Shown here: positions 110-38,675 of the stretch, piece after piece
How the letters are laid out: each line of letters starts with the position of its first letter
Numbering within the stretch: position 1 is the first letter of the stretch
From: a virus
Strand: one strand, 5' to 3'
IMG/VR virus record: IMGVR_UViG_3300015024_000014
Location: 1-41,507 of that record
DNA length: 41,507 nucleotides
Program-made: the position numbers and the translations under genes
The notes under the pieces: generated by a model
Databases searched by the model: none
Told to the model about the DNA's origin: nothing
What the model saw: only the letters and a program-made list of their open reading frames with translations

Positions 110-422
110 TGTTCTTGTCCTCCCTTTTAATTCTTCTCAATCTGTTTCCAACCTGAGTCGGACTCAACCCCACACGATCGGAAATCTTGGCATAAGTCAA
201 CCCGTCCGATCGTAAACGTATCAAAACCTCGTCCGAAATCTTAACAGGTGCCCCAAGCCCTCTAAAAACTCGATCGGGATGCGATAGGTTCAGCGCCTTA
301 GCAATCCTCAGCGACAGCGAGTGCGATGGGTTCGCCGCCAGCTCTATCAACTGCTCGATTACGATCGTGTAGTTGGCTTGCGACCTTAACCATCGGCTAG
401 CGCGATCGCTCAGACTCTTCAT
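102..422 (-). CDS. small helix-turn-helix DNA-binding protein
   Basis: This 106-residue basic protein has a C-terminal helix-turn-helix of the resolvase/HTH_23 kind: about 35 residues from SDEVLIRLRSDGLTYAKI to QVGNRLRRIK, with the turn near VGLS. Start 422 is chosen because the ATG forms an ATGA overlap with the stop of the upstream gene; in-frame ATGs at 428 and 446 are alternatives. It sits between a small unknown gene and the HAD phosphatase in a leftward operon. The promoter of that operon, about 220 bp upstream, is covered by a 25-bp inverted repeat. A role as repressor or regulator of its own operon is inference. No catalytic residues typical of a recombinase are visible, so an intact resolvase is unlikely. 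Confidence 0.55.
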   Translation of the reverse strand: MKSLSDRASRWLRSQANYTIVIEQLIELAANPSHSLSLRIAKALNLSHPDRVFRGLGAPVKISDEVLIRLRSDGLTYAKISDRVGLSPTQVGNRLRRIKREDKNNA

Positions 423-1817: not shown

Positions 1818-1840
1818 TGAGGGGACCGCTTCAAACTATG

Positions 1841-1880
1841 TTTCCCTATTATTCCCAAGGCTGCGGGAATAATAGGGAAA
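1841..1880. promoter_or_regulatory. palindromic divergent late promoter pair
   Basis: Positions 1841-1856 and 1865-1880 form a perfect 16-bp inverted repeat of GGGAATAATAGGGAAA with an 8-nt spacer. Each arm carries one copy of the phage-wide GGGAATAATA motif pointing outward: 1847-1856 toward the gene starting at 1817, and 1865-1874 toward the gene starting at 1898 and then the sigma gene. Distances to the start codons are 29 and 23 nt. Divergent transcription under the same factor, with positive autoregulation of the sigma operon, is inferred. Confidence 0.75.
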
Positions 1881-1897
1881 CCATTTCACTAAACATC

Positions 1898-2124: not shown

Positions 2125-2760
2125 ATGCCTCAAATTAGACCGCCTGACAATCCATATCATTCATTGATAGCAAAACATACAAAGCTAGCCTACAAAATAG
2201 CTTATGCATTTTCTGGCGGTCATTTAGGCAGGTATGAGGATTATAGATCGGTCGCTCTTCTGGCACTGGTGGAAGCAACGCAAAGTTATAACGCTGAACT
2301 TGGGGCGTTTTCAACTCACGCGACTAACAAAGTACGGAGCGATTTGCTTCATCATGTTAGGGATTCATCGTCAGTCCCTAGAGCTTGGATTGAAATCTAT
2401 GAACGGGTTAAGCGTGCCCATGTGGCGATGAACAGGGCACTTGCGATTGGTGGATGTCCATTGATATCGATTGAGCAGGTTGCCTCTCGTTTAGGGGTTG
2501 CAGACTGGCTGGAGATTGAAACGGCAATGAGACATCCTAATCCAACTTCATTCGACCTTCAGTCATCGCATTTGACATCTGATGTAGATGACATCGATCG
2601 TCCTCAATTGGTCAGGCGTGCGCTGCTATCAATGCCTATGGAATCACGAACCCGACTAGAGAAATACATGATGTCTTCCGGCACTGAATCTCATGGGTTG
2701 GAAGATTGCCTAGCTGAATTTAAAAACATCTATGAGAGGCTCTATGAAGCTTGCGACTAA
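2125..2760 (+). CDS. phage RNA polymerase sigma factor
   Basis: The protein has 211 residues. Residues 10-82 align with sigma70 region 2: LIAKHTKLAYKIAYAF, then EDYRSVALLALVEATQSYN and FSTHATNKVRSDLL correspond to the core-binding helix and the FSTYAxxWIR helix of other sigmas. The paired tryptophans used in -10 melting are absent. Residues 84-145 match region 3 (KRAHVAMNRALAI, ISIEQVASRLGV, ending PTSFD where housekeeping sigmas have PVSLD). Residues 160-211 resemble region 4.1, but the 4.2 helix-turn-helix is shortened to LEDCLAEFKNIYERL. Loss of 4.2 predicts no -35 recognition. It lies in the operon behind the divergent promoter palindrome and its 3' end overlaps the next gene. I infer it reads the GGGAATAATA promoters. 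Confidence 0.8.
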   Translation: MPQIRPPDNPYHSLIAKHTKLAYKIAYAFSGGHLGRYEDYRSVALLALVEATQSYNAELGAFSTHATNKVRSDLLHHVRDSSSVPRAWIEIYERVKRAHVAMNRALAIGGCPLISIEQVASRLGVADWLEIETAMRHPNPTSFDLQSSHLTSDVDDIDRPQLVRRALLSMPMESRTRLEKYMMSSGTESHGLEDCLAEFKNIYERLYEACD

Positions 2761-4612: not shown

Positions 4613-4622
4613 GGGAATAATA
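4613..4622 (+). promoter_or_regulatory. late promoter motif, tail tube gene
   Basis: An exact GGGAATAATA lies 30 nt before the ATG of the major tail protein, in the 47-bp gap after the preceding operon. The 5' leader contains short symmetric stretches around TTCTAGAA and no Shine-Dalgarno site. Confidence 0.7.
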
Positions 4623-6894: not shown

Positions 6895-7058
6895 TTAAGG
6901 GACACGCGATCGTCATTGCTAAGATCAAAAAAATCACTGACGTAGATATCAGACGGGCGATCGCTAGGAGTGGGAGTTTAGCTGCGTATCTAAACGCAAA
7001 GTTTGACGGGAATAATAGAACAGTACTCAAGAGAATCCCATCCCATGTCAGAAGTTAA
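6891..7058 (+). CDS. small basic protein coupled to portal
   Basis: This is a 55-codon frame beginning MIKGHAIVIAKIKKITDVDI. The ATG overlaps the portal stop as ATGA, typical of translational coupling. The protein is basic (many Lys and Arg), with a mixed strand-helix pattern and no family I recognise. Its 3' third contains the next GGGAATAATA promoter and overlaps the start of the following gene by 14 bp. The overlap junction is the main support for it being real. Confidence 0.45.
   Translation: MIKGHAIVIAKIKKITDVDIRRAIARSGSLAAYLNAKFDGNNRTVLKRIPSHVRS
7008..7017 (+). promoter_or_regulatory. late promoter motif, tail chaperone gene
   Basis: An exact GGGAATAATA lies 27 nt before ATG 7045. Downstream, AGTACTCAA (7022-7030) also follows the copy at 10798 at nearly the same distance, suggesting a second shared element. 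The motif lies inside the 3' end of the small gene at 6891-7058. Confidence 0.7.
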
Positions 7059-8488: not shown

Positions 8489-10798
8489 ATGACAAATCCA
8501 TCGGACCTGTTATCACTGCGGCAAGCGATCGCTCGATCTGAGTTTGCTCAGCAATCACAAAAAGTCCCTAGCGAAGCCAGTGAAGTTTACACCTTTGCTG
8601 GTTATGCTTCAGGGCTTGATTGCAAGGTAAAAAAAGCTAATGGCGAGGTTTTGAGTGCGCATCTAGAAACTAATGGACTGATCAAAGAAGGTCAGATTGT
8701 CTGCTGTTATCAGAGCGGCGGTCAATTGCTTGTTCGGGGCATGAATAAACCGTACCCCGAAAATCCAAACATCCCAGAAGCGAAGGAAAAAAGCAGAATT
8801 AAAATACTCTACGTCAAAAAAACTACTACAAGTGTAGAACTATATATTGGGGGCGATCGTCAAAAGCCTAAAATGATCGCTAGGTTCCCACTAGGCACGG
8901 TCATAAAGGGTTTATGCCATAACTTAGGGACAGGCGACAAGTATTCGATCGGCGTCACGACTGAGCTAAAAATAGATGCCACAACGACCGATCGATATGT
9001 GAAAACGTGGACAGCGGGAAGTGGGCGAAGTGAAACGACCACGGTCAAAACAGACTGGAAAAATGACCGGATTCAGCCGATCGGCTATGGCTTTTTTGCC
9101 GAAGGTTGGATGCCTAAATTGCTAGAAAAAAAATGGTTGTTCACCACTCTAAACGCAGATAAAACAGAGAAGAGCCTAAACTTTTTCGACAACAAAGAAG
9201 TCTATAAGCTTCGGGCAATGCCGACTGCGGCGGTCATTGAGGCGTACGTGATTAGGAAAGCGTTGGATGATTACAACATCATTATCACGGCGATCGCAGT
9301 GGGCGGCACTAGGCAAGTATCAATCCTGACTAAGACAGCAGTGGAAGCACTGCCAAAAGTGAAGCCTGAGAAGTGGGTCTTCGAGGCGATTGATTATTTA
9401 ATCGATCAAAACGGGTCTACTTTTTTTGACAAGAATTTAACAGGCAGTGCTCAGGTTTTGCCATCGTCAATATCTAAGAAATTGGCCTTAAAGATTTGGC
9501 AAGCAGCGATCGGTACTTTTAAACTTAGCTCTACTGCAACTCTTGAAGAATCCACAATTATTAGAAGCTCAGGAAAAAATGATGAAAAAAAAGTTGCTAT
9601 TGGATCAATAAGCTCTAATTTTTCAGTATTACCGATAAAACTTACTAGGGCCGCTGCGGTTTCATATGGATTTCCTAATGGAGATGTGCCACCTAATCCA
9701 GGGGTGAATCCGCTATATCCTTATAGTGGATGGGTCTATTCGTTTGCATCAGGAGTAATTACATCAGTTAGGCCAGGCGACAATTTTGAATTTGCTTTAG
9801 GCTGGAATCCGTGGATTGTCGCTCCAAACTTTCAAGGGGCTATCTTAGACGGAATTAATTACCCGACTAGTCCCCCAAAATGGACATTGCAGGGGATCTG
9901 TTTAGGGATTCAGTATCGTTATGTCTGGGATTTAAGCAGTCTAGCTCTAGGACCGCCTTCAACTCTTGCTGAGCTAAATGGATTAACACCCAGGAATAGA
10001 AGAGTCACAGAAATCCCTCAGAATGCCTTATATCCTGCGGACCCTAATGCTGTATTAGCAGGTCGCCCAGATTTGTATGATGGGTTTAGCCCTATCCCTG
10101 TCGGTTGGATTGTTGGGCCTATACGTCCAGAGGCAAGGCAATGTATTATCGCAATTGCAGAAAATGGACAAACTTCTGAAATATGGGATGAGCCGTCAAT
10201 AAATTTCTATGATGGAAATGTTTATAATAATAAAAATAAAGACATCGTAAATTGGCCACCTGGAACTCCTAGACTTCCCGCGCCAAGTGTAACGCCAAAA
10301 GGCCCAGATCTAAATGAGCCAACAAAGCCCTCAGAAGCACCATGGACGCTCGAAGATTATCTATGGAATGACCCGATCGTCGTTGGCAAAAGTGGCGAGG
10401 CACTGTGGAAGAATAAAGTATTCATTGACTACACAGGCAACCCACCAAAGAAACCCGCTGCCAAAAAAGATGACAAGTTACTGAAGTTTAAAGCGCCAAA
10501 ACCTCCAAATCCGATCGGCGGTGGACTATCAGAAGATATTCTTGAAATGACGATCGCAGGTAAATTCCCACTTTTATGTGCTGAAGATAATCTAGTTGGG
10601 TCAAAGTTATTTCGAGTCGATCGATCGGTTTTTTATCCAGCGATACCAGGCACACCCAACCCCCGCAGGAGTAGCATAAAGAAGCTCCTTGTGGAAACAT
10701 ATACCTTGTCAGCAACGACCGCTGTTACAGTTAAAAAATACCCGATATTTCCCATTCCTGATGATGTGGAAATATTGTCCGCATCATTCCACTTATAG
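8489..10798 (+). CDS. large tail-region protein, unknown
   Basis: This 769-residue protein starts 2 nt after the preceding stop, with GAGGT ahead of ATG 8489. Residues about 33-85 (VYTFAGYASGLDCKVKKANG through LETNGLIKEG to GGQLLVRGM) look like a small beta-barrel, and a similar arrangement appears in the 88-residue protein at 17440-17706. The middle is mixed, from about 400 it is Pro/Gly/Trp-rich with loops (VWDLSSLALGPPSTL), and residues 590-680 hold long proline-lysine linkers. Size, composition and location between chaperone and scaffold suggest a virion or tail-tip component. No enzymatic motif is visible. Confidence 0.5.
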   Translation: MTNPSDLLSLRQAIARSEFAQQSQKVPSEASEVYTFAGYASGLDCKVKKANGEVLSAHLETNGLIKEGQIVCCYQSGGQLLVRGMNKPYPENPNIPEAKEKSRIKILYVKKTTTSVELYIGGDRQKPKMIARFPLGTVIKGLCHNLGTGDKYSIGVTTELKIDATTTDRYVKTWTAGSGRSETTTVKTDWKNDRIQPIGYGFFAEGWMPKLLEKKWLFTTLNADKTEKSLNFFDNKEVYKLRAMPTAAVIEAYVIRKALDDYNIIITAIAVGGTRQVSILTKTAVEALPKVKPEKWVFEAIDYLIDQNGSTFFDKNLTGSAQVLPSSISKKLALKIWQAAIGTFKLSSTATLEESTIIRSSGKNDEKKVAIGSISSNFSVLPIKLTRAAAVSYGFPNGDVPPNPGVNPLYPYSGWVYSFASGVITSVRPGDNFEFALGWNPWIVAPNFQGAILDGINYPTSPPKWTLQGICLGIQYRYVWDLSSLALGPPSTLAELNGLTPRNRRVTEIPQNALYPADPNAVLAGRPDLYDGFSPIPVGWIVGPIRPEARQCIIAIAENGQTSEIWDEPSINFYDGNVYNNKNKDIVNWPPGTPRLPAPSVTPKGPDLNEPTKPSEAPWTLEDYLWNDPIVVGKSGEALWKNKVFIDYTGNPPKKPAAKKDDKLLKFKAPKPPNPIGGGLSEDILEMTIAGKFPLLCAEDNLVGSKLFRVDRSVFYPAIPGTPNPRRSSIKKLLVETYTLSATTAVTVKKYPIFPIPDDVEILSASFHL

Positions 10799-10807
10799 GG
10801 AATAATA
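10798..10807 (+). promoter_or_regulatory. late promoter motif, scaffold gene
   Basis: An exact GGGAATAATA begins on the last base of the previous gene's stop codon. It is followed by ACGGAGTACTCAATG, so a GGAG ribosome site and a leader start codon come only 12 nt after the motif. The AGTACTCAA element is shared with the copy at 7008. Confidence 0.7.
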
Positions 10808-16268: not shown

Positions 16269-16278
16269 GGGAATAACA
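16269..16278 (+). promoter_or_regulatory. late promoter motif variant, minor head gene
   Basis: GGGAATAACA, one mismatch from the consensus, lies 25 nt before the GTG start at 16304. It is alone in a 43-bp gap. The same variant occurs before the tape measure gene. Confidence 0.6.
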
Positions 16279-17714: not shown

Positions 17715-17852
17715 ATGTCCCCAAACAGAAGAGATCTAGAAACCCTCTATATTCTAATTGCGATCGTCTCTCTTTTCGCTTTCCCCTATATTTTTTCAGG
17801 GGGAGAGATGACGCCCGAATACTTGCTTAAACGCTTATTTGGCGGGGAATAA
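17715..17852 (+). CDS. small single-span membrane protein
   Basis: This is a 45-residue frame: a basic/acidic N-terminus (MSPNRRDLET), then a hydrophobic span LYILIAIVSLFAFPYIF, then a charged C-terminus with LLKRLFGGE. The stop codon lies inside the GGGAATAATA motif. A short protein with one span in a phage could be a holin, spanin-like or superinfection-exclusion protein. No lysis genes were otherwise recognised in this window, which makes it a candidate. It lacks a clear ribosome site and its start is 8 bp from a divergent gene, so confidence is moderate. Confidence 0.45.
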   Translation: MSPNRRDLETLYILIAIVSLFAFPYIFSGGEMTPEYLLKRLFGGE

Positions 17853-17854
17853 TA
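17845..17854 (+). promoter_or_regulatory. late promoter motif in GGCGGGGAATAATA context
   Basis: An exact GGGAATAATA lies within GGCGGGGAATAATA. It is followed by AAGGACTGAGATCGG and, 28 nt on, a 9-bp HIP1-type hairpin. The same context recurs at 24639. The distance to ATG 17936 is 81 nt, longer than for most copies, so this transcript has a structured leader. Confidence 0.65.
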
Positions 17855-19274: not shown

Positions 19275-19284
19275 TATTATTCCC
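19275..19284 (-). promoter_or_regulatory. late promoter motif, minus strand
   Basis: Read on the minus strand this is an exact GGGAATAATA, 28 nt before the ATG at 19246. It shows that the motif follows gene direction rather than a fixed strand. Confidence 0.7.
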
Positions 19285-19335: not shown

Positions 19336-19887
19336 ATGGTCAATTCATGGGAATTTAATAAAGATTTAGATACCGCAAAAAGTTTCCAAGGATTTACCTG
19401 TTATAGAGACTTAGGATCAACGCGATCGCTTTTAACAGCCTCTGAAGTTTACTGCGGGCGGAAATCAGGCGGGAAGAAGGCGGCAGGCTTTTTTGAGCGC
19501 TGGTCAAATGCTGGTCATTGGGTCGATCGTGCATTGGCGTTCGACGTCGAAAACGATCGCACTCGCCTTGATGATTTATCGATTGAAGGTCGAATAAAGC
19601 ATGAGCAGCGTTTGGAAGAAGTGCGATCGGTTGCTGAAGCGATCGCATTGGCTAGACTTCAAACATCCCTGCGATCGGCCCTGCTCGTTCGGGATACTAT
19701 CTCGTCACTCCAAGATGAATGTAAAACTGGCAATCGTTTTGTAATGAATGACGCGCAATCGGCTCGGCTGTTGCTGCTAGTGTCTATCCAAAACAAAGAT
19801 GCATCGACTATTGAAGCATCTTTAAAACTTGCTGATGAAGCGTTAGGGATTCAACTATTGCAAGATAAAATGAGCGGGAATGCTTAG
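19336..19887 (+). CDS. terminase small subunit
   Basis: The product has 183 residues from ATG 19336; TTG 19315 is a longer option. Residues about 1-75 carry a pattern common in phage small terminases and their relatives: FTCYRDLGSTRSLLTASEVY, then WSNAGHWVDRALAFD. The rest is helical, as expected for the oligomerisation region. Small terminases recognise viral DNA and recruit the large subunit. The partner gene starts 4.9 kb further on, separated by a methyltransferase module and the early genes. A weak host-type -10 (TATACT, 19295-19300) lies upstream. The stop overlaps the methyltransferase stop by 4 bp. Confidence 0.6.
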   Translation: MVNSWEFNKDLDTAKSFQGFTCYRDLGSTRSLLTASEVYCGRKSGGKKAAGFFERWSNAGHWVDRALAFDVENDRTRLDDLSIEGRIKHEQRLEEVRSVAEAIALARLQTSLRSALLVRDTISSLQDECKTGNRFVMNDAQSARLLLLVSIQNKDASTIEASLKLADEALGIQLLQDKMSGNA

Positions 19888-20876
19888 GATAGCCATTGTT
19901 CAATAACAGCTCTTGCCACGGCTTCAGTCATTTTAGGAGGGACGCTCATCCCGATCATGTATTTGCCTATTTTGTCAGTTTTTGCTTTGTAATCGTCAGG
20001 AAATGATCCGAGTCTTATATACTCTTGGAAAGACCAAGCTCTCTTAAAACTTACACGATCGAGTGAGATAAGATCAAAACTATTGTTAGTTGCTGTCAAT
20101 GTTGGGCTTGGCTGGGAATGAACGGCATGTATTGGGAGGCGGAAGGCCAATACATGCCGTTCATTCCCAGCCGTGACAAGATAAAGATCTTTCAATGATC
20201 CACATAGATCCTCAACTGCTTCCCCAGCACTAATCCAACGATGTTGAGGATTCAACATAAGCTTAGGACGATCGATGTCATCACGAAGCGCACAGAAGAA
20301 CACCCGTTCACGCTTTTGTGGTACTCCGCAATCAGCAGCATTAACTAAGAATAACTGAGGACAATAACCGATCGCTTTATACCTGTCAAAAATCATTTTC
20401 ACATAACCTTTCGCATTCCCTTGAATCATACCTTTGACATTTTCAGCAATCGAGACTTTGGGCCGTAATCGATCGACTAGGTTTAAATAATCAAAAAACA
20501 GATCATCTAGAACCTGCTCAGATTGCCCTTCTCTAAAGTGCTTTTTCTTGCCCCAATCCTTTTCTCTATTGCCTGCCATGCTGAAGCTAGAGCAAGGCGG
20601 CGAACCATCTAAAATGTCTAAATCAAATAATTCAGCAGGTAATTCTTTAGTAATCAAATCCTTAATTGGGCATAGGAAATAATGCTTAGGGTTTAGGTTG
20701 AGTTTGTAGTGATATGCCATTTCATGGTCTATATCATTAGCTGCGACGATCGTACATCCTGCTCGTTTATAGCCTAAAGAAGACCCACCTCCACAAGCAA
20801 ACGTAGACATGACGTTAAGCCCATTCTTTGGCACTGATGCTAAGTCTGACAGGTTCCATGCACAACTATTTGTCAT
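19884..20876 (-). CDS. C5 cytosine DNA methyltransferase
   Basis: The product has 330 residues from ATG 20876, which overlaps the ParB-like gene by 11 bp. Motifs in order: FACGGGSSLGY (residues 26-36, SAM binding, motif I), IVAANDID (motif II), DGSPPCSSFS (about 90-99, motif IV with catalytic Cys 95), ENVKGM (145-150, motif VI), QKRERVFF (187-194, motif VIII) and QPSPTLTATNN after a very short recognition region. It adds a methyl group to carbon 5 of cytosine in an unknown site. No cognate endonuclease is visible, so self-protection or gene control are likelier than restriction-modification. A 26-bp inverted repeat lies in-frame within codons about 236-255. Confidence 0.92.
   Translation of the reverse strand: MTNSCAWNLSDLASVPKNGLNVMSTFACGGGSSLGYKRAGCTIVAANDIDHEMAYHYKLNLNPKHYFLCPIKDLITKELPAELFDLDILDGSPPCSSFSMAGNREKDWGKKKHFREGQSEQVLDDLFFDYLNLVDRLRPKVSIAENVKGMIQGNAKGYVKMIFDRYKAIGYCPQLFLVNAADCGVPQKRERVFFCALRDDIDRPKLMLNPQHRWISAGEAVEDLCGSLKDLYLVTAGNERHVLAFRLPIHAVHSQPSPTLTATNNSFDLISLDRVSFKRAWSFQEYIRLGSFPDDYKAKTDKIGKYMIGMSVPPKMTEAVARAVIEQWLS
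20110..20172. repeat. perfect 26-bp inverted repeat inside methyltransferase gene
   Basis: Positions 20110-20135 are the exact reverse complement of 20147-20172, with an 11-nt spacer. It falls in the methyltransferase coding region just before motif IX and keeps the frame. The arms encode AGNERHVL and PIHAVHSQ. No second copy was seen in this window. It may be an inserted palindromic element or a transcript hairpin. Confidence 0.8.
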
Positions 20877-21426
20877 TGTATCGGAACCCGCACTTAGGAC
20901 AGTTATGCTCAAACTCATAAGCGTCTGGGTCAATCTCTTTCGTAGAAGAATCCATTAAGTCATCGCTTGAACCATCATCATTCCAGTCCATTGCGCTTGA
21001 ATTAATCAGATCTGATAATTCAGATTCCTGATAGGGTAAGCCCACCATTAAATCTTCAATGTCCTGATTCTCGCTTAGTTCTGCCAGCAATGCCGATAAC
21101 TGAATTTTGTCAGCCGTTGCGCGTGTCTCGTCCATCACAATTGTAACTTTCTTCGCTTGGTCATCGGTTAGACCATGCAGGACGATCGCATAAACATCCT
21201 CATCAGGCTTAAAAGTTCGATGCCGCCCTTCCCCATCTAATATCTGATACTCGCCCTCAATGTCAGGATGCGGTCTACAGACAACATCTTGAATCTGGCT
21301 AAACTCTCCTATTGATTCACCGATCGCCTGCTGTAGACGGTCTGGCTTGTTAGCATAGGGGTTCCATGGATTCGGGTGCAGTTGCCGAGCTTTTAGTAAT
21401 ACCGATCGATCTATTTTTCTATTCAC
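20866..21426 (-). CDS. ParB-like nuclease-domain protein with zinc knuckle
   Basis: The product has 186 residues. Residues about 10-100 are a ParB/sulfiredoxin-like domain: LHPNPWNPYANKPDRLQQAI, then IQDVVCRPHP and ILDGEGRHRTF, where DGEGRHR replaces the usual GERRxRA motif. The acidic C-terminal part ends with HNCPKCGFRYN, half of a zinc ribbon. In phages this domain is often encoded with DNA methyltransferases, as here, where the two genes overlap by 11 bp. It may load or regulate the methyltransferase or act as a nuclease; the sequence does not decide. Its start overlaps the preceding gene by 8 bp. Confidence 0.75.
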   Translation of the reverse strand: MNRKIDRSVLLKARQLHPNPWNPYANKPDRLQQAIGESIGEFSQIQDVVCRPHPDIEGEYQILDGEGRHRTFKPDEDVYAIVLHGLTDDQAKKVTIVMDETRATADKIQLSALLAELSENQDIEDLMVGLPYQESELSDLINSSAMDWNDDGSSDDLMDSSTKEIDPDAYEFEHNCPKCGFRYNDK

Positions 21427-24641: not shown

Positions 24642-24651
24642 GGGAATAATA
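24642..24651 (+). promoter_or_regulatory. late promoter motif, terminase region
   Basis: An exact GGGAATAATA lies in the same GGCGGGGAATAATA context as at 17841. It is followed by ACAGGTCTGAGTTCGG, a small 6-bp TCTGAG/CTCAGA stem and then a strong terminator about 30 nt on. Transcripts from here would be about 65 nt unless the terminator is read through into the large terminase gene. Confidence 0.65.
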
Positions 24652-27699: not shown

Positions 27700-27709
27700 G
27701 GGAATAACA
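27700..27709 (+). promoter_or_regulatory. late promoter motif variant, tape measure gene
   Basis: GGGAATAACA lies 24 nt before ATG 27734, just past the terminator of the preceding unit. No Shine-Dalgarno site follows. Confidence 0.65.
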
Positions 27710-27733: not shown

Positions 27734-30700
27734 ATGTCCGAAAATGTTGGATCGGTAGAAATTAAATTAGTCCTAAACCGGGATGATTTTGATTTACAAA
27801 TTTCGACCCTAGCAGAGCAACCGCCTGTATCAGTTTTGATGCGTGCTGGGCTAGACACGAAGCAGCTAGAGTCTGATCTAAAGGCGATAGGAAGCCGCAC
27901 GATCAATGTTCGCCTCAACACCGATGCAATCTCTAAACAGTTAGACGATGCGCTCGCAGGGCGTACTGTCTCGGTTCGTCTTAAATTGGATGCAACGGCA
28001 TTCAATGACGAATTAAGGGTACTCACCACTACTAATAGACAAGTTTCGATCGCAGTATCGCTAGACGATCGATTTGACGATCGCGCCCTTGACCTAAGAA
28101 TAAAAAATGCAACCCGCGATCGAACTGTCCGTGTGTTTGGTGTTGCTGAATTCACCAGTTTAAATCAATCTTTAGCCGCGCTAGATAAGCACTTAAGCCG
28201 TAGCTTAACCCCAACCGTAGACGATCGGGCATTAACTCAGCTCAACGAGCATCTATCCCTAAAACAGCAGCATTGGGCTAAGGTTCGTGAGGATCTTAGC
28301 AAGCCGATAAAACCAACTATCGACGAGAGCGATTTAGACGCCTCACTATCAATCAATCGATCGCCTATCGTCATTCCGGCTGTGGTAGTCGTCGATCGAA
28401 GTCAGATTGATGCCTTAGCTGGTCAAACCGTAACGCTTCGACTAGCCGGGAATACCACTGAGCTAAAAAGAGATATTGATGGAATAACTAAGGCACGGGT
28501 GGCGATTGGTGGCACTGGTACAAACAACGCGCTATCTCTAAATCCATTTAAATTCATCGGCAACATCGGCTCAAATATCCTTGGCGGCGCGTTGACAGGC
28601 GTTGGGATGGAGTTGTCTAAATCTTTAGGCGGCGGCATCACCAAGGCGATTGAAGGCGCTATCTCTGGCACGTTTGGATCGACTGACTTGCTCGGTGAAA
28701 TACTGGGCAAAAAGCTGACAGGTGCGATCGGCGGCGGTATTAATAAATCGGCAGTTATTCTAAAGTCGCTTGAAGAATACGTTGACAAGGTTGAACCTGA
28801 AACGCCCGAAGGCTTGAAACGTAAACGCCAAATAAAACAGGTCATTTCACAAGTTCAAGAAGCCCCACAGAATGTTGCTGATTCGCTCACTAGAGAGGTT
28901 GGGGCGCGTGAGATATCGCGTGAACAATTCCTACGTCGGGGTGCTGTTAGCGACCAAAGGAAAGCGCAGGACGCGGTCGTATCAGTTCAGGCAGACACAG
29001 AATATCAAGATCGAGCGCGTGAATTAGCGGTATCGTCAGCCCGAAGAGTGAAGCTAGATGTAAAATCTAATAAACAAATTGAATCAAAATCTGAGCGATT
29101 AGGGACGATCGCCTCTGACATTGAACCGCTGCAAGCTGAAATAAGACAATTTAGTGAAAGCCCTCTAGGACTAGCAGTTTCAGCACAGGAAAAAGCTAAA
29201 AAGCTGTTGTCTGCTTTCACGCCTGCTAAATATTCCGCAGCCGATCAAAAAGCATCATCTTCCGCTTATTCATTACTTCAGACACCAGAAGAGCAAAGCA
29301 CTGATTTCCGCAATAAACAAACGGGACTATCCGCCGATCGGATTAATGCATTCACGCCAAAAGTTTACTCCCCAGAAGCTTACCAGGTAGCAGCCTTTCA
29401 AGGTAAGACTTTGCCAAGTGCAGCGCAGCAAACTGAAGAGAACAAAAGAAAGGTACTTGCGGAAACTAGCCGATCGATCGACTCTTTCAAGCCAGCAGTA
29501 TACAGTGACAAAGACAAAACAAGCGCGGCGGAATTAGTCAAACTACTGCCCAACGAGCAAGATCAAAAACGACTATTAGTTGAACAAGTTGCAAAAACAT
29601 CCAAAGTCGTAGACAGCCAATCGAAGACTAAACAAAGTTCATCCGATAAAGCTTTTGAGCAATTAGATCGGGAAGCTGGAAAAGATGTCCCAGAATTTGT
29701 ACCAGTCGATTTAATTGCAAAACAAAATGAGCGATTAAAAGCTTATAAAAAGCTTACTACAGAAGGAAAGTTATTAGAAAAAGACATTGCACAGCTAAAA
29801 ACAGCAAAACAATCGGCGGTTCAAACTGTTAACAAAGATGAATTTCAAGTAAAACTATCAGACAGTTTTAGAATATCTAAACCGCTAGAAATTCAGCGGG
29901 CAGAGTCGGCGGCAAAATTAGAGAAGCTAGGGAATGTAGATGACGTCAAAAGTCAACTAGGGGTATCTAGGACCGCTGCGGAAACAAGTTTAAAAGAGCA
30001 GTCGGGTAATTCACTAGACATCGCAAAAACCAAGTCTAGTGACGCTTCTGGCGAGGCTAACCGTGCGGAAGCTAGACGATCGAATCTCATTCAGGCAAGG
30101 CGATCGCAATTCACGGAATCAGTCAATAGCAATGCACCTATTAAGGATGTTGAAGCGCTTAAAGACAAGCTGGACAAGACCGAATCACGCGCAGGCCGTG
30201 TGCCATCGCTAAAAGTTAAGGCAACCGAAACTAAAGCTGCTCTTAATGCTCAACTAGGAAAGATTGCAGCATTTAAAGCCGAAATTTCAACGACTGACGA
30301 CGCAATAGCAGAGGTCACAGATTTACACGCCAGAACCGTCGCAGAATTTAACGCTGTCGAAGCCCAAGCAAATAAGATTAAGGGTAAAGCAGCCAAAAAA
30401 GAAAAAGCACCAAAAGTAAAAGAGTCGATCGCTTCTCCCGTTGCGGCAGATGTTGCAGCAATAAAAACAGCTCAACCGATCGAAAAGGTTTCACAACAAT
30501 CGGAACAAATTGAAGCAGTTAAGGCCAAAGCAGCACAGGTCGGCCAATCAATAAAAACAGGTGCGGGGAAGGTTAAGGACGCAGTATTAAAACCCGATCG
30601 TAATATTGATATTGATGTTGATAAAGTAAAAGCGGGTGCGGCTGTTGCTGGGCGAGCAATGTATTCAAGCGGTCTAAATGTTGCAAAAGGTTTAGATGCT

Positions 30701-33700
30701 GCTACAACGGCGGTCAAGACATTTACGCAATCAACGCAGGGCAAGGCTATTGGAGCGGCTATTGGAGGCGCGACTACAGCTATTGGGACAGTGGCAAAAA
30801 CAGGTTACAAAATTGCTTCTGGTGTTGAATCGGTCGCTCTGGATTTAATCCCAATGGGACGATCGGCTAAAGGTCTGCTAAAACAAACCGCTTTACCTGC
30901 GCTCGCTTACAGTGCGGTCACTCATGCAATACCAGGGGGCGGGGCGATCGCCGGGGGCTTAGAGCATCTTGCGTCGGGCGTATTAGGTCCGGTGATGAAC
31001 GGCGGGGCTAACATCATAGGTGGTCAAGCGACGTCAATGATATCGCAGCTAATCCCTAACGTGATGGGATTGCAATCGAATGTAATAAGCGCTGCCACTG
31101 GATTAATAGATAGTGCAATGTCAGGGGCGATCGCTCCTCTAGCTGGGGCTGCAACAGCCATTCTTGGTGGCAAGGTCTTAACCGGATCTGCTGGGAATGT
31201 TGTTAAGGCGTTGCCGTTTGTTGGCGGGGCTAAACCTTCCCCATCTCTGGCGTTGCCGCCATCAACTAAATTAGCGCTTCCCCCTGCAACGAATGAAGCC
31301 AAAATGATCGACGTTGCGCCTGTCAAGGCTCCTAACCTTGAGGCATTGACAAGGGCGCAACTCTATGCAGTAGCAAAACAAGAGAGCGTACAGGGCGTTA
31401 CAGCTAGCACGAAGAAAGCGGATTTAATTGGACGTATTTACTCTAATGTTGCTCCCGAAAAGCTGGGGTCAATCGCATCTAATATTGATAGCAATTTTGA
31501 CAGGCAGGGCAAGCCAGTTAAGGGCTATGACACGGCCAAAGAAAGCGCCGTTATTGCTCAGATAAAACAGCAAGAAAGAGCGATAAACGATCGTATTGCA
31601 CAGGTTAAAAAACTTAGCGGCATCGATCGTATTAATGCTCTTGAATCGCTCAATATCGAATCATCGCAATTCGTCACGCAACTGGAGAAACTGAAGGGGA
31701 CAAGCTCAATCGCTGGGTTCTCCGGTCCCACGATGAAAACGATCGGGAGTACCCAAGGCAGGGTTTCCGCATCAATCAGCAGCAAGCCTGAAATAGCAGA
31801 ATCTAGAGATAACAGACTCAAGGCCACAGCTGAAGCAATGCGCGGTCCTACCTACGGGCGATCGTTTGCTGAATTGGTTAACACATCAGTTGAGGTTCAG
31901 TCTGGACAGGCTCAGGCATCGCAACCGCTTAAACTTGCCAGGGTAGCGCGTGCCGATTTAGAACCTATGCCCGCGCCACGTAGACCGTTCCTAGACTTAT
32001 CAGCAAAGGCCGCTGAATTCTTCGGCGCAACTCCTGGGACATCAATTAAGCAGAATTTAGGTGCTATTACTCGGACTGACAAAGCACGCGGGATGTTCTC
32101 AGAAGCTGCCATCGCCGGGGCTGGGATGCTCGCTAGTTCTGCCGCTTCAGGAAATGGCTCAATAGCAGGCGGTGCGGCTAGTATTGGCGCGACGCTTGTC
32201 ACTCGTTTAGCCATTGAATCAGGCTCACAATATTCTGCGGCAATTGGCCGACTAAAACAGCAAGAATCATTCTTGCGTGCCAGCCTAATCCAAAAAGCGA
32301 AAATGCTGGCGGGTGCGGCAAAAGAAATAAACCTAAACAAAACAGGCGATGCAATAACGGGCGATATTGCAGGATTTACGATCGGGACAGCCGGAGACGC
32401 ACTGAAGAAAGGACTAGCGGCATCGCTCGGAATGCCGATGCTGGCACAGCTACCAATAGATGCAATCGCCGCAACAATCTTGCCAGGTAAAGTGGTTTCG
32501 GCTCGTCAGTCGTTTGCAGTGGCTAAGGCCGAAGAACCAAAGCAAGATAACATTATCGATCGCTTTAAATCAAGGGTCAGTAATTTACGCCCCATCAACA
32601 ATGAGCGACTACAAGCCAATTACTCAGCATTCCAACAAACCTATTCAAAAAACAATGCAGGTAGTGCCATTGGGTCACTAGCACCGCGCCTAGAAGTTGC
32701 TGATAAAGAACTAAAAGCGTCCGGGGCTGAAGCCTTGTATGACGTCGATCGTAATGTTGTGATGGTCTCCAAAGCGCTTGCGAGGGCATTAGATCAACCT
32801 GTTCAAAGCTTGGCTAAGGCTGCGCAAAAACTCGAACCGCTCACACATGAAATTCAGCACTCTAATCAATTTGCAGGTGGTCAGCTAAACGTAGAACAGG
32901 CTTCTATGGGTCTGGGCACTCCGCTAACTTCGACCATTGACCCTAAAAACAAATCAGCAATTGATAAGTCAGTGGCGATCGCTGCTTCTCAAAATCCAGG
33001 GCTGAACAAGGGCCAACTTCATAAGCTCGAAGTGGACGCCTATGCCGCTGAATCTCGGACGCTGGGCACTCTGATTGAAATGCAGGCTAACGCAGGAAAC
33101 AAGACCCCGCCATTGAATGCGATCGGGTTAAAAGTTTCCTCAGTAATGGATAAGGTCCGCAACTCGGTAGGCGATAGCGTTGACAATTTCAGGGAGACCG
33201 TCTTAGGTCAATCAAACATTGCCAACATCTCACGGACGACCCGCGCTTATGGACAGGTCGATCGTTCATTAGGACGCAGGGCTGACCAGTCATCGGCACT
33301 AGCGGACGCGGCCTATGATGAATCTAGAAAGCGATCGATTAACTCTGAAACTGCCGAAACAAGCGCAGCCAATACCGCACAGGCAGGCAGATTCTCCGGT
33401 GTTGCAAGGCGTTTAGGATTGGTACCAGAAGGCGAGGCGCGGGCCGTTTCAATATCTCAACAGCCTCAATCTAGAGTCTCTCGAATTGCCTCTGAATTCC
33501 AAGATGCGAAAGCATTTGTCACAGGTGGAATCGCATCCGTCACGAGCGACTTTACTAAAGGTGATGCGAAAAAACTTGCTGCTACTGCTGTGGACGCCCG
33601 TACTCTATCGGCTGACATTGGGACATCACAGGCGATCGCCACTAGAGACGGCAAAACGGACGAAGCCAAGTCTTTAGGCAAGCTGAAGCGCCGTGTAGAT

Positions 33701-36700
33701 GTCACTGCCGACCGAGCCGAACGGGTATCTAGTCAAGATTCATTCACTGGCAAAGATGCCAAGAAAATCTCTGATCTAAAATCACAGTTCAATGAAATTT
33801 ATCAAACGGCTGGGCGTCCTATTCCTCATCCATTTGAAGAGATGAAGGGCGCAGCAGGTGGCTTAATTGGTAACCTTCGAGGCGTTGGCCTTGGAATGTT
33901 GGCATTGCCCTTTGCCGCCGCTGGAATTGGCATGGCGGCTAATGCGATGAAACAATTCGGCAGTGAAGCAATCCAAGCGGCGATCGCGTCTGATCGCGTG
34001 AAGACCGCACTAACCTTCTCCACTGGGTCAAAGAGTGGCGGCGACCGAGCTTATCAATATGCAGCCGATCAAGCCTCTATATTAGGTGTCGATCGAAACG
34101 CATCTATTGATGGTTACTCAAAGTTAAGAGCGTCATCTAAAGGCAAGATAAGCGAAGGGCAATCTAACACGCTGTTCGAAGGTGTTGGAGCGGCAGCCAC
34201 CACTCTAGGATTAACAGCAGAGGACCAGAGCGGAGTATTTCGGGCACTTGGTCAAGTTATGTCTAAAGGCTCTGTGCAAGCCGAGCAGTTGCGCGGTGAA
34301 ATTGGTGAAAGATTGCCCGGTGCTTTTGCGATCGCCGCTCGGTCGGTCGGGATGTCTGAAGCTCAATTGAGCAAGGCAATGGAAATGGGTTCTATCTCTG
34401 CCGAGAAGTTTATTCCTAAGTTTGGTGCTCAGCTAAAACAAGAATTTGGCCCCGGTGCTAAGGACGCATCACAGAATCTCCAATCCTCCATGTTTAGATT
34501 ATCAGGTGCCACGAGTAAGGCTACTGAGGACGCCGGGGCATCGTTGGCCGTGCCCGTGAAATTCGGCGTTGATGCGGCGGTCGGTGGCCTTGCACTATTA
34601 GAGCAGCATGGCAATACTCTGATGGCTGTGATTGGCCTTGGTTTAGCAAATGCTGCATACACTGGGATGAGTGCGATCATCGCCTCTCTTGGTGGCTTAA
34701 AATCCATGGGGCTAATGGCATTAGAAGCTGCTGGCGGTGTAGCTGGTCTCGGGCGATCGATCGCATCTGCCGCTGCAACCGTTGGGCCAATGGTCGGTCA
34801 ATTCTTATTAATCAATGCCTCAATCGAAATTGGGAAAGCGTTGTTTTCAGCGTTTACGCCTGACGATATGGGCAGTCGATTTGAGGAACAAGCGAATAAG
34901 ATTCAGCAGTCTTTAGACGACATTGAGAAAAAAGGAAGTGATGCCAAAAAATCGTTGTCAGATGTTCAAGGCCCATCTAAAGTTCTTGATATTGAGAAAG
35001 CAACATTCGGGCTTTCTAATGCTGTTGGGATTAAGAAGGGCGATGATGTTGTTAAAAATATTAGTAAGCCTGACGGGTCTGGCATTGCTGACAATGGTTT
35101 TGTTCGTGCATTGTCTATGGGTTCACCGATTGGACTTATCACAGAAATCGGTCGCAGGGTTAACGAATCAAACGGGGGCAAAGGACTTGCGACGATGGCA
35201 GAAGTTCAATTTAATAAATCGAAAATAGATCTAGCTGATCAAGGCGATAAGATTTACGGAGCGACGGGGAAGACCTTTGACAGTTTGCCAGAGCTTAGAA
35301 AAAATGCAATTCAATCACAATCTGAACAGAAGACGATCGATCAGAAACAAGTGGAAAAGGCAAAAGAACTATCCACAGGTGCCCCTGATAAAAATAAAGT
35401 CCTTAAATTAGATGAAGACATCAAAGCAGCGGGAGAGCGTAGGGATAAAAATAACGTCGGCTTCGTTGACCAAAGAAGCTTGATCGGCTCTCAGATAATC
35501 GATCTTAAATCACAACGCGAAGGACTGAAAGACAACAAAGATTACACTCCAGGTCAAAAGACAGAATTAGAAGGTCAAATCAATGCTCAGCTAGGACAGC
35601 TCGAAGGTGCCAAAAAGCAGCTAGACGCGATCGATAAAAAGTTCGGCGGTAGCGTTGACATCATGGGGAAATTTAATGTTTCCTTGTCTGAGATGGCGGC
35701 GAAGATTGAGGCCACCGCAGCGGTCGCTAAGAACGCATTTAATAGCTCTGAGGTGAAACGTTTAGAGGGCCGCAATGCTAATCGTGGCAAAGACGAATTT
35801 GCATCACAGAATAGTGCAGTAAAACAAGCTGAAAACGAAAAGACCCGCGCAAGTAGTGAGTTTACAGGCACTAAAAAGACGATTGACGAAATCAATAAAG
35901 TGATGGAGGATCCAACCGTTAAAACGGAAATCTCTAAAATCGCAATCAATGGTCAATCGGTCACGGGTGAAACGTCCGCATCTGATTTAGAACAGGCTAA
36001 GGCAGGTCGTCCAGACGGTGAGAAGAATCAGATTGAAAAGCTTATCGCTAGACGTAAGGCGATCGATTCGTTGCCGGAACTGAAGAAAAATGAGTTAGAA
36101 AGCGACGAGAAAGTATTCAGCACTAAATCTGCACTAGCACTGGAAAAGAACGATCGCACGTCTAAGGTCCGTGAGTTTGAGAATAGAGGTTTCGAGGGTA
36201 AGGCTAACCTTGAGTTAATCAATGCCCAAAAAGGGAACAAGGTTAACGAAGGGGATGTACCTGTTAGACAAGCTGAGATCGGCAAAATCTCGGCTGACTT
36301 GCAAGTTGCTTCAATTGGGGAAAATATCAAGGGGCTTGATGCCCTATTCGCGGCGGGGACCATTAGTAAAGAAGAATATACCAAACGATCGATGGATTTA
36401 CGATCGTCTTTAGTTGAGGCCACGACGAAAGCAGCGCAAGCTGAATTAGCGGTTGAGCAAGCCAAAAATAAACGCATCATTGATGATTTTGAATTGACCA
36501 TCAAGAAGCGCGAGGTTGGACGAAAGGAGAAGACCGGAGCGGAAACAGTCGGGTTAATCAATGCCCAGAAAGGAAACAAAATCAATGAGTCAGACGTTGC
36601 CATAAAACGCGCTGAGATATCATCCACATCGGCTAAAGGTGAGCTGTCCGAGGCTAGACAAGAGATGACTGAAGTCGATGCGCTTAAGGCCAAGGGTGTC

Positions 36701-38665: not shown

Positions 38666-38675
38666 GGGAATAATA
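38666..38675 (+). promoter_or_regulatory. late promoter motif, major capsid gene
   Basis: An exact GGGAATAATA lies 68 nt before the capsid ATG at 38744. The leader contains an out-of-frame ATG at 38683 that opens a 45-codon frame overlapping the capsid start. Confidence 0.7.

Follow-up and report, generated by a model that had tools for sequence, protein, structure and literature searches.

How can a sigma factor that seems to have lost the part of the protein reading the -35 box still select the promoters of its phage, and which promoters would these be? The question is raised by a 211-aa open reading frame (ORF) in an IMG/VR virus record of 41,507 bases, which was analysed as a whole and is called the window here. 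The record is classed as linear and is therefore possibly a fragment. The host of the phage is probably a cyanobacterium, because the window sequence holds 25 copies of the HIP1 octamer GCGATCGC and its portal and capsid proteins find their matches among cyanophages; a comparison of portals placed the siphocyanophages S-CRES1-3, PSS2 and S-CBS2 closest among the isolates. Scans of IMG/VR with the portal and the capsid returned nothing, therefore the window phage has no known close relative. Most of the terminase relatives in IMG/VR were unrelated, GC-rich phages, and the sigma could not be found in these; the capsid-related Microcystis phages Mwe-JY08 and Mwe-JY26 had neither a sigma annotation nor a match to the sigma family profile described below. 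A wider scan of a genome collection found distant sigmas only, in Cohnella, Propionibacteriaceae and Planctomycetaceae contigs.

The sigma ORF was found exactly where the original prediction, made from the sequence alone, had placed it, and Pfam Sigma70_r2 matched its residues 14-82 (E=1.2e-5, over the curated cut-off). Longer models extended this match. The NCBIfam SigF model PRK07408 aligned with residues 14-149, covering regions 2-3 (E=4.6e-13), with a score of 49 of 261 bits that is far under the curated cut-off and with its region 4 part unaligned; PHROG 351 aligned with residues 14-144 (E=1.9e-9), and a PDB profile search matched FliA (E=3.8e-13), with no gp55 chain among the matches listed. 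The protein had been described as having both regions 2 and 3 intact. This held for region 2, which agrees in sequence and fold with the sigma-70 family, group 3 (SigF/B/G-like), while region 3 is plausible and less certain, because the Pfam region-3 model was silent and the fold over residues 91-140 was predicted with moderate confidence (pLDDT 54-73), the SigF model reaching residue 149.

The predicted erosion of region 4.2, with the loss of its usual turn, was borne out by profile searches and by structure prediction. Pfam found no region 4 in the full-length sigma or, at E<=10, when residues 151-211 were searched by themselves, and PF04545 had no match over the whole window at E<=10. As a positive control, the RpoD-like sigmas of the cyanophages KBS-S-2A and S-CBS3 gave Sigma70_r4 matches with E ~1e-8 to 1e-9, therefore the method is able to see region 4. 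In the AlphaFold2 model (35-sequence alignment, mean pLDDT 75), two helices at residues 159-169 and 172-183 (pLDDT ~90) stand at the place of region 4.1, and residues 192-210 form one unbroken helix, without the turn and recognition helix expected for region 4.2. The domain orientation in this model is unreliable due to a pTM of 0.42. The best Foldseek matches of the model were sigma factors, aligned over most of the length. Sequence and predicted structure show a protein with region 2 and a region-3-like segment in place, in which the half of region 4 that reads DNA is gone. It is likely to be the late sigma of a siphovirus-like cyanobacterial phage, of the kind of T4 gp55 and phiEco32 gp36. 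The neighbouring ORF at 2744 had been labelled DUF3102-like and, as speculation, proposed as a coactivator; Pfam gave no match for it at E<=1, and the coactivator role was unsupported.

Table 1. The sigma factor and the strict sites of the candidate promoter element in the window.
Feature	Position	Strand	Basis
Phage sigma factor, 211 aa	2125..2760	+	ORF list, Pfam, PHROG, NCBIfam, AlphaFold2
Sigma parts: region 2; region-3-like helices; region-4.1-like helices	residues 14-82; ~86-136; 159-183		
Sigma C-terminus: helix where the region 4.2 helix-turn-helix would stand	residues 192-210		
GGGAATAATA, putative promoter of operon orf1898 - sigma - 2744 ORF	1865..1874	+	
GGGAATAATA, 5' of divergent ORF 1817-1389	1847..1856	-	
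Perfect 17-bp inverted repeat with 8-nt spacer: the two divergent elements + 7 identical downstream bases	1840..1881	.	
GGGAATAATA, 30 nt 5' of ORF 4653 (then portal gene 5473)	4613..4622	+	
GGGAATAATA, 27 nt 5' of start 7045	7008..7017	+	
GGGAATAATA, 38 nt 5' of ORF 10846	10798..10807	+	
GGGAATAACA, 25 nt 5' of ORF 16304	16269..16278	+	
GGGAATAATA, 81 nt 5' of ORF 17936	17845..17854	+	
GGGAATAATA, 28 nt 5' of ORF 19246-18821 (minus strand)	19275..19284	-	
GGGAATAATA, 110 nt 5' of large terminase gene 24762	24642..24651	+	
GGGAATAACA, 24 nt 5' of 3576-aa ORF 27734 (tape-measure-like by size and place)	27700..27709	+	
GGGAATAATA, 68 nt 5' of major capsid gene 38744	38666..38675	+	

The lone element that had been proposed together with the sigma proved to be real. 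No other 10-mer is as over-represented in the window as GGGAATAATA, which has 9 sites where a third-order Markov model expects 0.11. When up to one mismatch was allowed, 14 sites were found against 2.9 +/- 1.8, and 0/100 shuffles reached this number. With the variant GGGAATAACA, it forms a strict set of 11 sites on both strands, GGGAATAA[TC]A, which can be written as GGGAATAAYA. Each of the 11 is followed after 23-110 nt by the start codon of a gene in the same orientation, yet upstream positions of similar definition make up only ~3% of strand positions. The genes behind them include those of the large terminase, the 3576-aa tape-measure-like ORF and the major capsid, and a 65-aa ORF that is followed by the sigma gene (Table 1). 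Three 9-mer copies without the leading G (7073 on the minus strand, 15743 and 27491) are located inside ORFs and are probably due to chance.

No -35 signal accompanied the element in the window, as the best matches to TTGACA had a mean of 3.36 against 3.58 +/- 0.21 in shuffled sequence, and three other -35-type words upstream of the element were not above shuffled sequence beyond noise. A scan for sigma-70-type promoters around the sigma gene also showed no excess over shuffles. In sequence terms, a single conserved word stands at promoter distance from the late genes, and the -35 position shows no conservation. The copy ahead of the sigma operon suggests positive autoregulation. The repeat at this place consists of two divergent copies of GGGAATAATAGGGAAAC 8 nt apart, and the divergent ORF encodes 142 aa; two holoenzymes bound here would be expected to overlap, and the sigma operon may thus be mutually exclusive with the 142-aa ORF.

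Other features of the window were also observed. The 3576-aa ORF (27734-38464) occupies a quarter of the record, and a very long tail would be expected if it encodes a tape measure protein. On the minus strand (19884-21426), a C5-cytosine methyltransferase adjoins a ParB-like protein. A long inverted repeat at ~651-707 (CCCCTAGTAATTGTCAACTAATCCG...CGGATTAGTTGACAATTACTAGGGG) has TTGACA within each arm, one of which scores as a sigma-70-like promoter (669-641, minus strand), possibly marking an early or regulatory region.

Among the nearest isolates, PSS2, S-CBS2 and S-CRES1 carry a SigF-like sigma gene immediately behind terL, the gene of the large terminase, and each encodes a second sigma too. 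Scanning IMG/VR with the S-CBS2 protein gave a family set of 67 loci, S-CBS2 itself being one of them, in which Sigma70_r2 matched 34/34 aligned members and region 4 matched 0/34. A family profile that was built without the window protein found the window sigma with E=3.8e-9 (hmmsearch), and hhalign of the family against it gave a probability of 95.7 over residues 16-188, extending from regions 2-3 into 4.1. The identity between the window sigma and the family is about 20-25%, and the direct match of the PSS2 sigma was weak (E=0.02). Two observations were made on individual family phages. The early RpoD-like sigmas of S-CRES1 (L083, 4757-5533) and S-CBS2 (L084, 24805-25590) gave no Pfam region 4, and their C-termini look like helix-turn-helix (HTH) by eye. 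The S-CBS2 sigma gp077 (L084, 33833-34570) stops early (GSRVPQGRC), which points to a frameshift, either natural or a sequencing error, because an overlapping downstream frame encodes the family C-terminus including VGDGRLQGSLF.

A motif search of the intergenic stretches of PSS2, S-CBS2 and S-CRES1 returned GG.A..CT(A/G) in each, with log-likelihoods of 109-130 versus 34-44 in shuffled controls; the global k-mer excess in these genomes consisted of coding repeats and iterons only, so that the intergenic search was needed. In the 67 loci, GGnAnnCTA was found in 276 sense versus 33 antisense positions, the top strand asymmetry of the 4096 gapped hexamers with the same spacing, and it most often ends 19-23 nt before a start codon. 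Upstream zones contained 12 sites in PSS2, 25 in S-CBS2 and 21 in S-CRES1, compared with 0-1 in KBS-S-2A and S-CBS3, which carry RpoD-like sigmas only, and S-CBS4, none of which has a sigma of this family. When genes of the relatives were chosen by annotation, the element was located 5' of 34/50 late versus 3/28 early or metabolic genes. The -35 position was as empty as in the window, with a best-match mean for TTGACA of 3.49 versus 3.45 +/- 0.04 in shuffled sequence at 197 family sites.

If GGnAnnCTA is read as an extended -10, its invariant positions would be G-14, G-13, A-11 and T-7, the numbering from -14 to -6 being inferred from sigma biology. The window element GGAATAATA fits this frame in GG, A-11 and T-7, and has A at -8 where the family usually has C. 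Compared with GGnAnn(C/A)TA, position 7 is always A in the window, 2/11 sites end in ACA, and the strict GGGAATAAYA allows less variation than the consensus of the family. The ATA ending of the window is also found at the major capsid gene of relatives (GGTATTATA in S-CBS2 and GGCATAATA in S-CRES1), and the family capsid genes have the element 125-131 nt from the start; the candidate terS promoter of S-CRES1 is GGCATACTA. Because of the low identity between the sigmas, the link between the window element and that of the family is one of positional analogy and weak homology.

The relatives also differ in what replaces the region-4.2 part, as 32/53 distinct full-length members end exactly with Q-x-x-L/V-F (such as QGSLF, QPSLF and QASLF) at this place, and GGnAnnCTA is shown by both tail classes. 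Such endings occur in 40 of 2864 distinct ORFs in the family loci, which are sigmas, several RusA-like resolvases (QEPLF) and very few others. Among them, a large ORF directly downstream of one sigma gene ends with QQALF. Bacterial proteins that bind the clamp have QL(S/D)LF as a C-terminal motif (PMC9690074); in T4 gp55, a flexible linker precedes a clamp-binding motif at the C-terminus, and gp33 mimics region 4 (PMC2988020, PMC7892883). By analogy, the tail suggests replication-coupled late transcription via the sliding clamp in the marine relatives only. The window sigma ends with YERLYEACD, without a QxxLF tail, and a search for clamp-binding peptides in other window proteins gave weak internal matches only, none of them convincing. 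RusA-like resolvases of the family phages (L089, L093, L095, L098, L114) were seen to end with QEPLF, QETLF and QEDLF.

Region 2 of sigma factors is responsible for core binding, reading of the -10 and melting, and A-11 and T-7 are the bases flipped out of the helix by sigma factors. We infer core binding, element reading and autoregulation for the window sigma and clamp tethering for its relatives. The sigma would bind the core RNA polymerase of the host and read GGGAATAAYA as an extended -10, in which GG at -14/-13 could stand in for TG and would be followed by A-11 and T-7. A -35 contact would then be dispensable for late transcription, as it is for T4 gp55 and phiEco32 gp36. Because the sigma operon is preceded by the same element, an early trigger could lead to late expression that amplifies itself. 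In the marine relatives only, the C-terminal QxxLF could link late transcription to replication by tethering the holoenzyme to the sliding clamp.

Another explanation is that a different sigma reads the element, which could be the host SigA with the element as its extended -10, another host sigma, of group 2 or 3, or a further phage sigma encoded beyond the fragment, with the truncated protein being an anti-sigma-like decoy or a degenerate gene. We consider this unlikely. The element does resemble an extended -10 (GG-AATAAT-A), and the second sigma of PSS2, S-CBS2 and S-CRES1 could in principle read it; no replication genes were recognised in the linear window, therefore a second sigma could be missing from the record. 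However, the element was not enriched upstream of genes in the phages with RpoD-like sigmas only, KBS-S-2A and S-CBS3, or in S-CBS4, and a degenerate gene is disfavoured because core positions of regions 2-3 are conserved across 35 sequences.

A split sigma, in which region 4 would come in trans from a separate small protein that recognises a diffuse element further upstream, as in Bacillus RsoA/SigO, is highly improbable. A candidate would be the 114-aa HTH ORF 446-102 on the minus strand, with Sigma70_r4_2 matching at E=7e-5, under the Pfam cut-off, and NCBIfam sigma70-ECF at E=6e-4 over the HTH, but AsnC-type and several generic HTH families match it equally or better. It is also on the opposite strand and unlinked to the sigma operon, and no conserved -35 sequence was found upstream of the element, hence this generic HTH protein was not favoured. 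Least probable of all is a function of the element at the RNA level, in the leader or in translation, as a processing site or ribosome-binding aid. The often fixed, short distance to start codons in the family would fit such a role; however, the distances of up to 110 nt in the window and beyond this at family capsid genes fit promoters with short or long leaders and not a translation signal, the invariant bases are A-11 and T-7 of the sigma -10 element, and there was no Rfam match.

With a phage late sigma and its single-element promoter as the preferred reading, we lean, with some reserve, towards the view that non-T4 siphocyanophages independently built a replication-coupled late sigma. This would be a group 3 sigma that lost its -35 domain, is mostly QxxLF-tailed in marine members and uses the previously undescribed promoter GGnAnnCTA, and the window phage would have a divergent, tail-less version with GGGAATAAYA. 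If true, a second lineage with another sigma and a predicted bacterial-type clamp motif would make the loss of region 4 together with clamp tethering a repeatable solution for the timing of late genes. It would also provide a ready late-promoter word for siphocyanophages, including the isolates PSS2, S-CBS2 and S-CRES1-3, and what replaces the -35 contact becomes a question testable with existing isolates.

The kind of sigma is already known, because T4 gp55 and phiEco32 gp36 are precedents for a missing region 4 with a one-element promoter. For this family, the loss of region 4, the promoter word and the clamp tail of the relatives were undescribed in the literature searched, mostly non-subscription journals, so an earlier mention is possible; a description of late promoters in PSS2, S-CBS2 and S-CRES1-3 was likewise not found there. 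The PSS2 paper gives a group 3 sigma with an unspecified regulon, and sigma-70-type promoters were the only ones predicted (PMC2784084). PSS2 ORF003, S-CBS2 gp077 and S-CRES1 gp20 (annotated as 'type III rpoS' or SigF) resemble the window sigma in regions 2-3, in the unmatched region 4 and in the promoter frame, and differ in having GGnAnnCTA rather than GGGAATAAYA, in a gene that adjoins terL, unlike in the window, and, for most of the PSS2-type relatives, in the QxxLF tail. The cyanobacterial SigF or group 3 sigma (PRK07408) is the best full-length profile match to the window sigma, and differs in its region 4 part, which has no counterpart in the alignment.

The analogy with T4 gp55 in the original prediction held where it was computable, as region 4.2 is missing, the late element is single and -10-like, and distant relatives pair both. 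The two share a sigma-2 domain, the missing region 4 and a single -10-like late promoter without -35, and most marine relatives also share the sliding-clamp-binding peptide, as predicted, at the extreme C-terminus. However, gp55 has little recognisable homology beyond region 2, whereas the SigF match of the window sigma runs through regions 2-3 and its region-4.1-like helices are retained. Its promoter word is another one, the tail of the relatives is of the bacterial QxxLF type, and the window sigma is tail-less, with no gp33 and gp45 counterparts identified. Besides gp55, the closest described precedent is phiEco32 gp36, from an E. coli phage with another promoter word, tAATGTAtA, which is a single element at middle and late genes, the missing region 4 being given as the reason (PMC8948821). 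By this description, gp36 and the window sigma are alike in being phage sigmas without region 4 that are paired with one promoter element.
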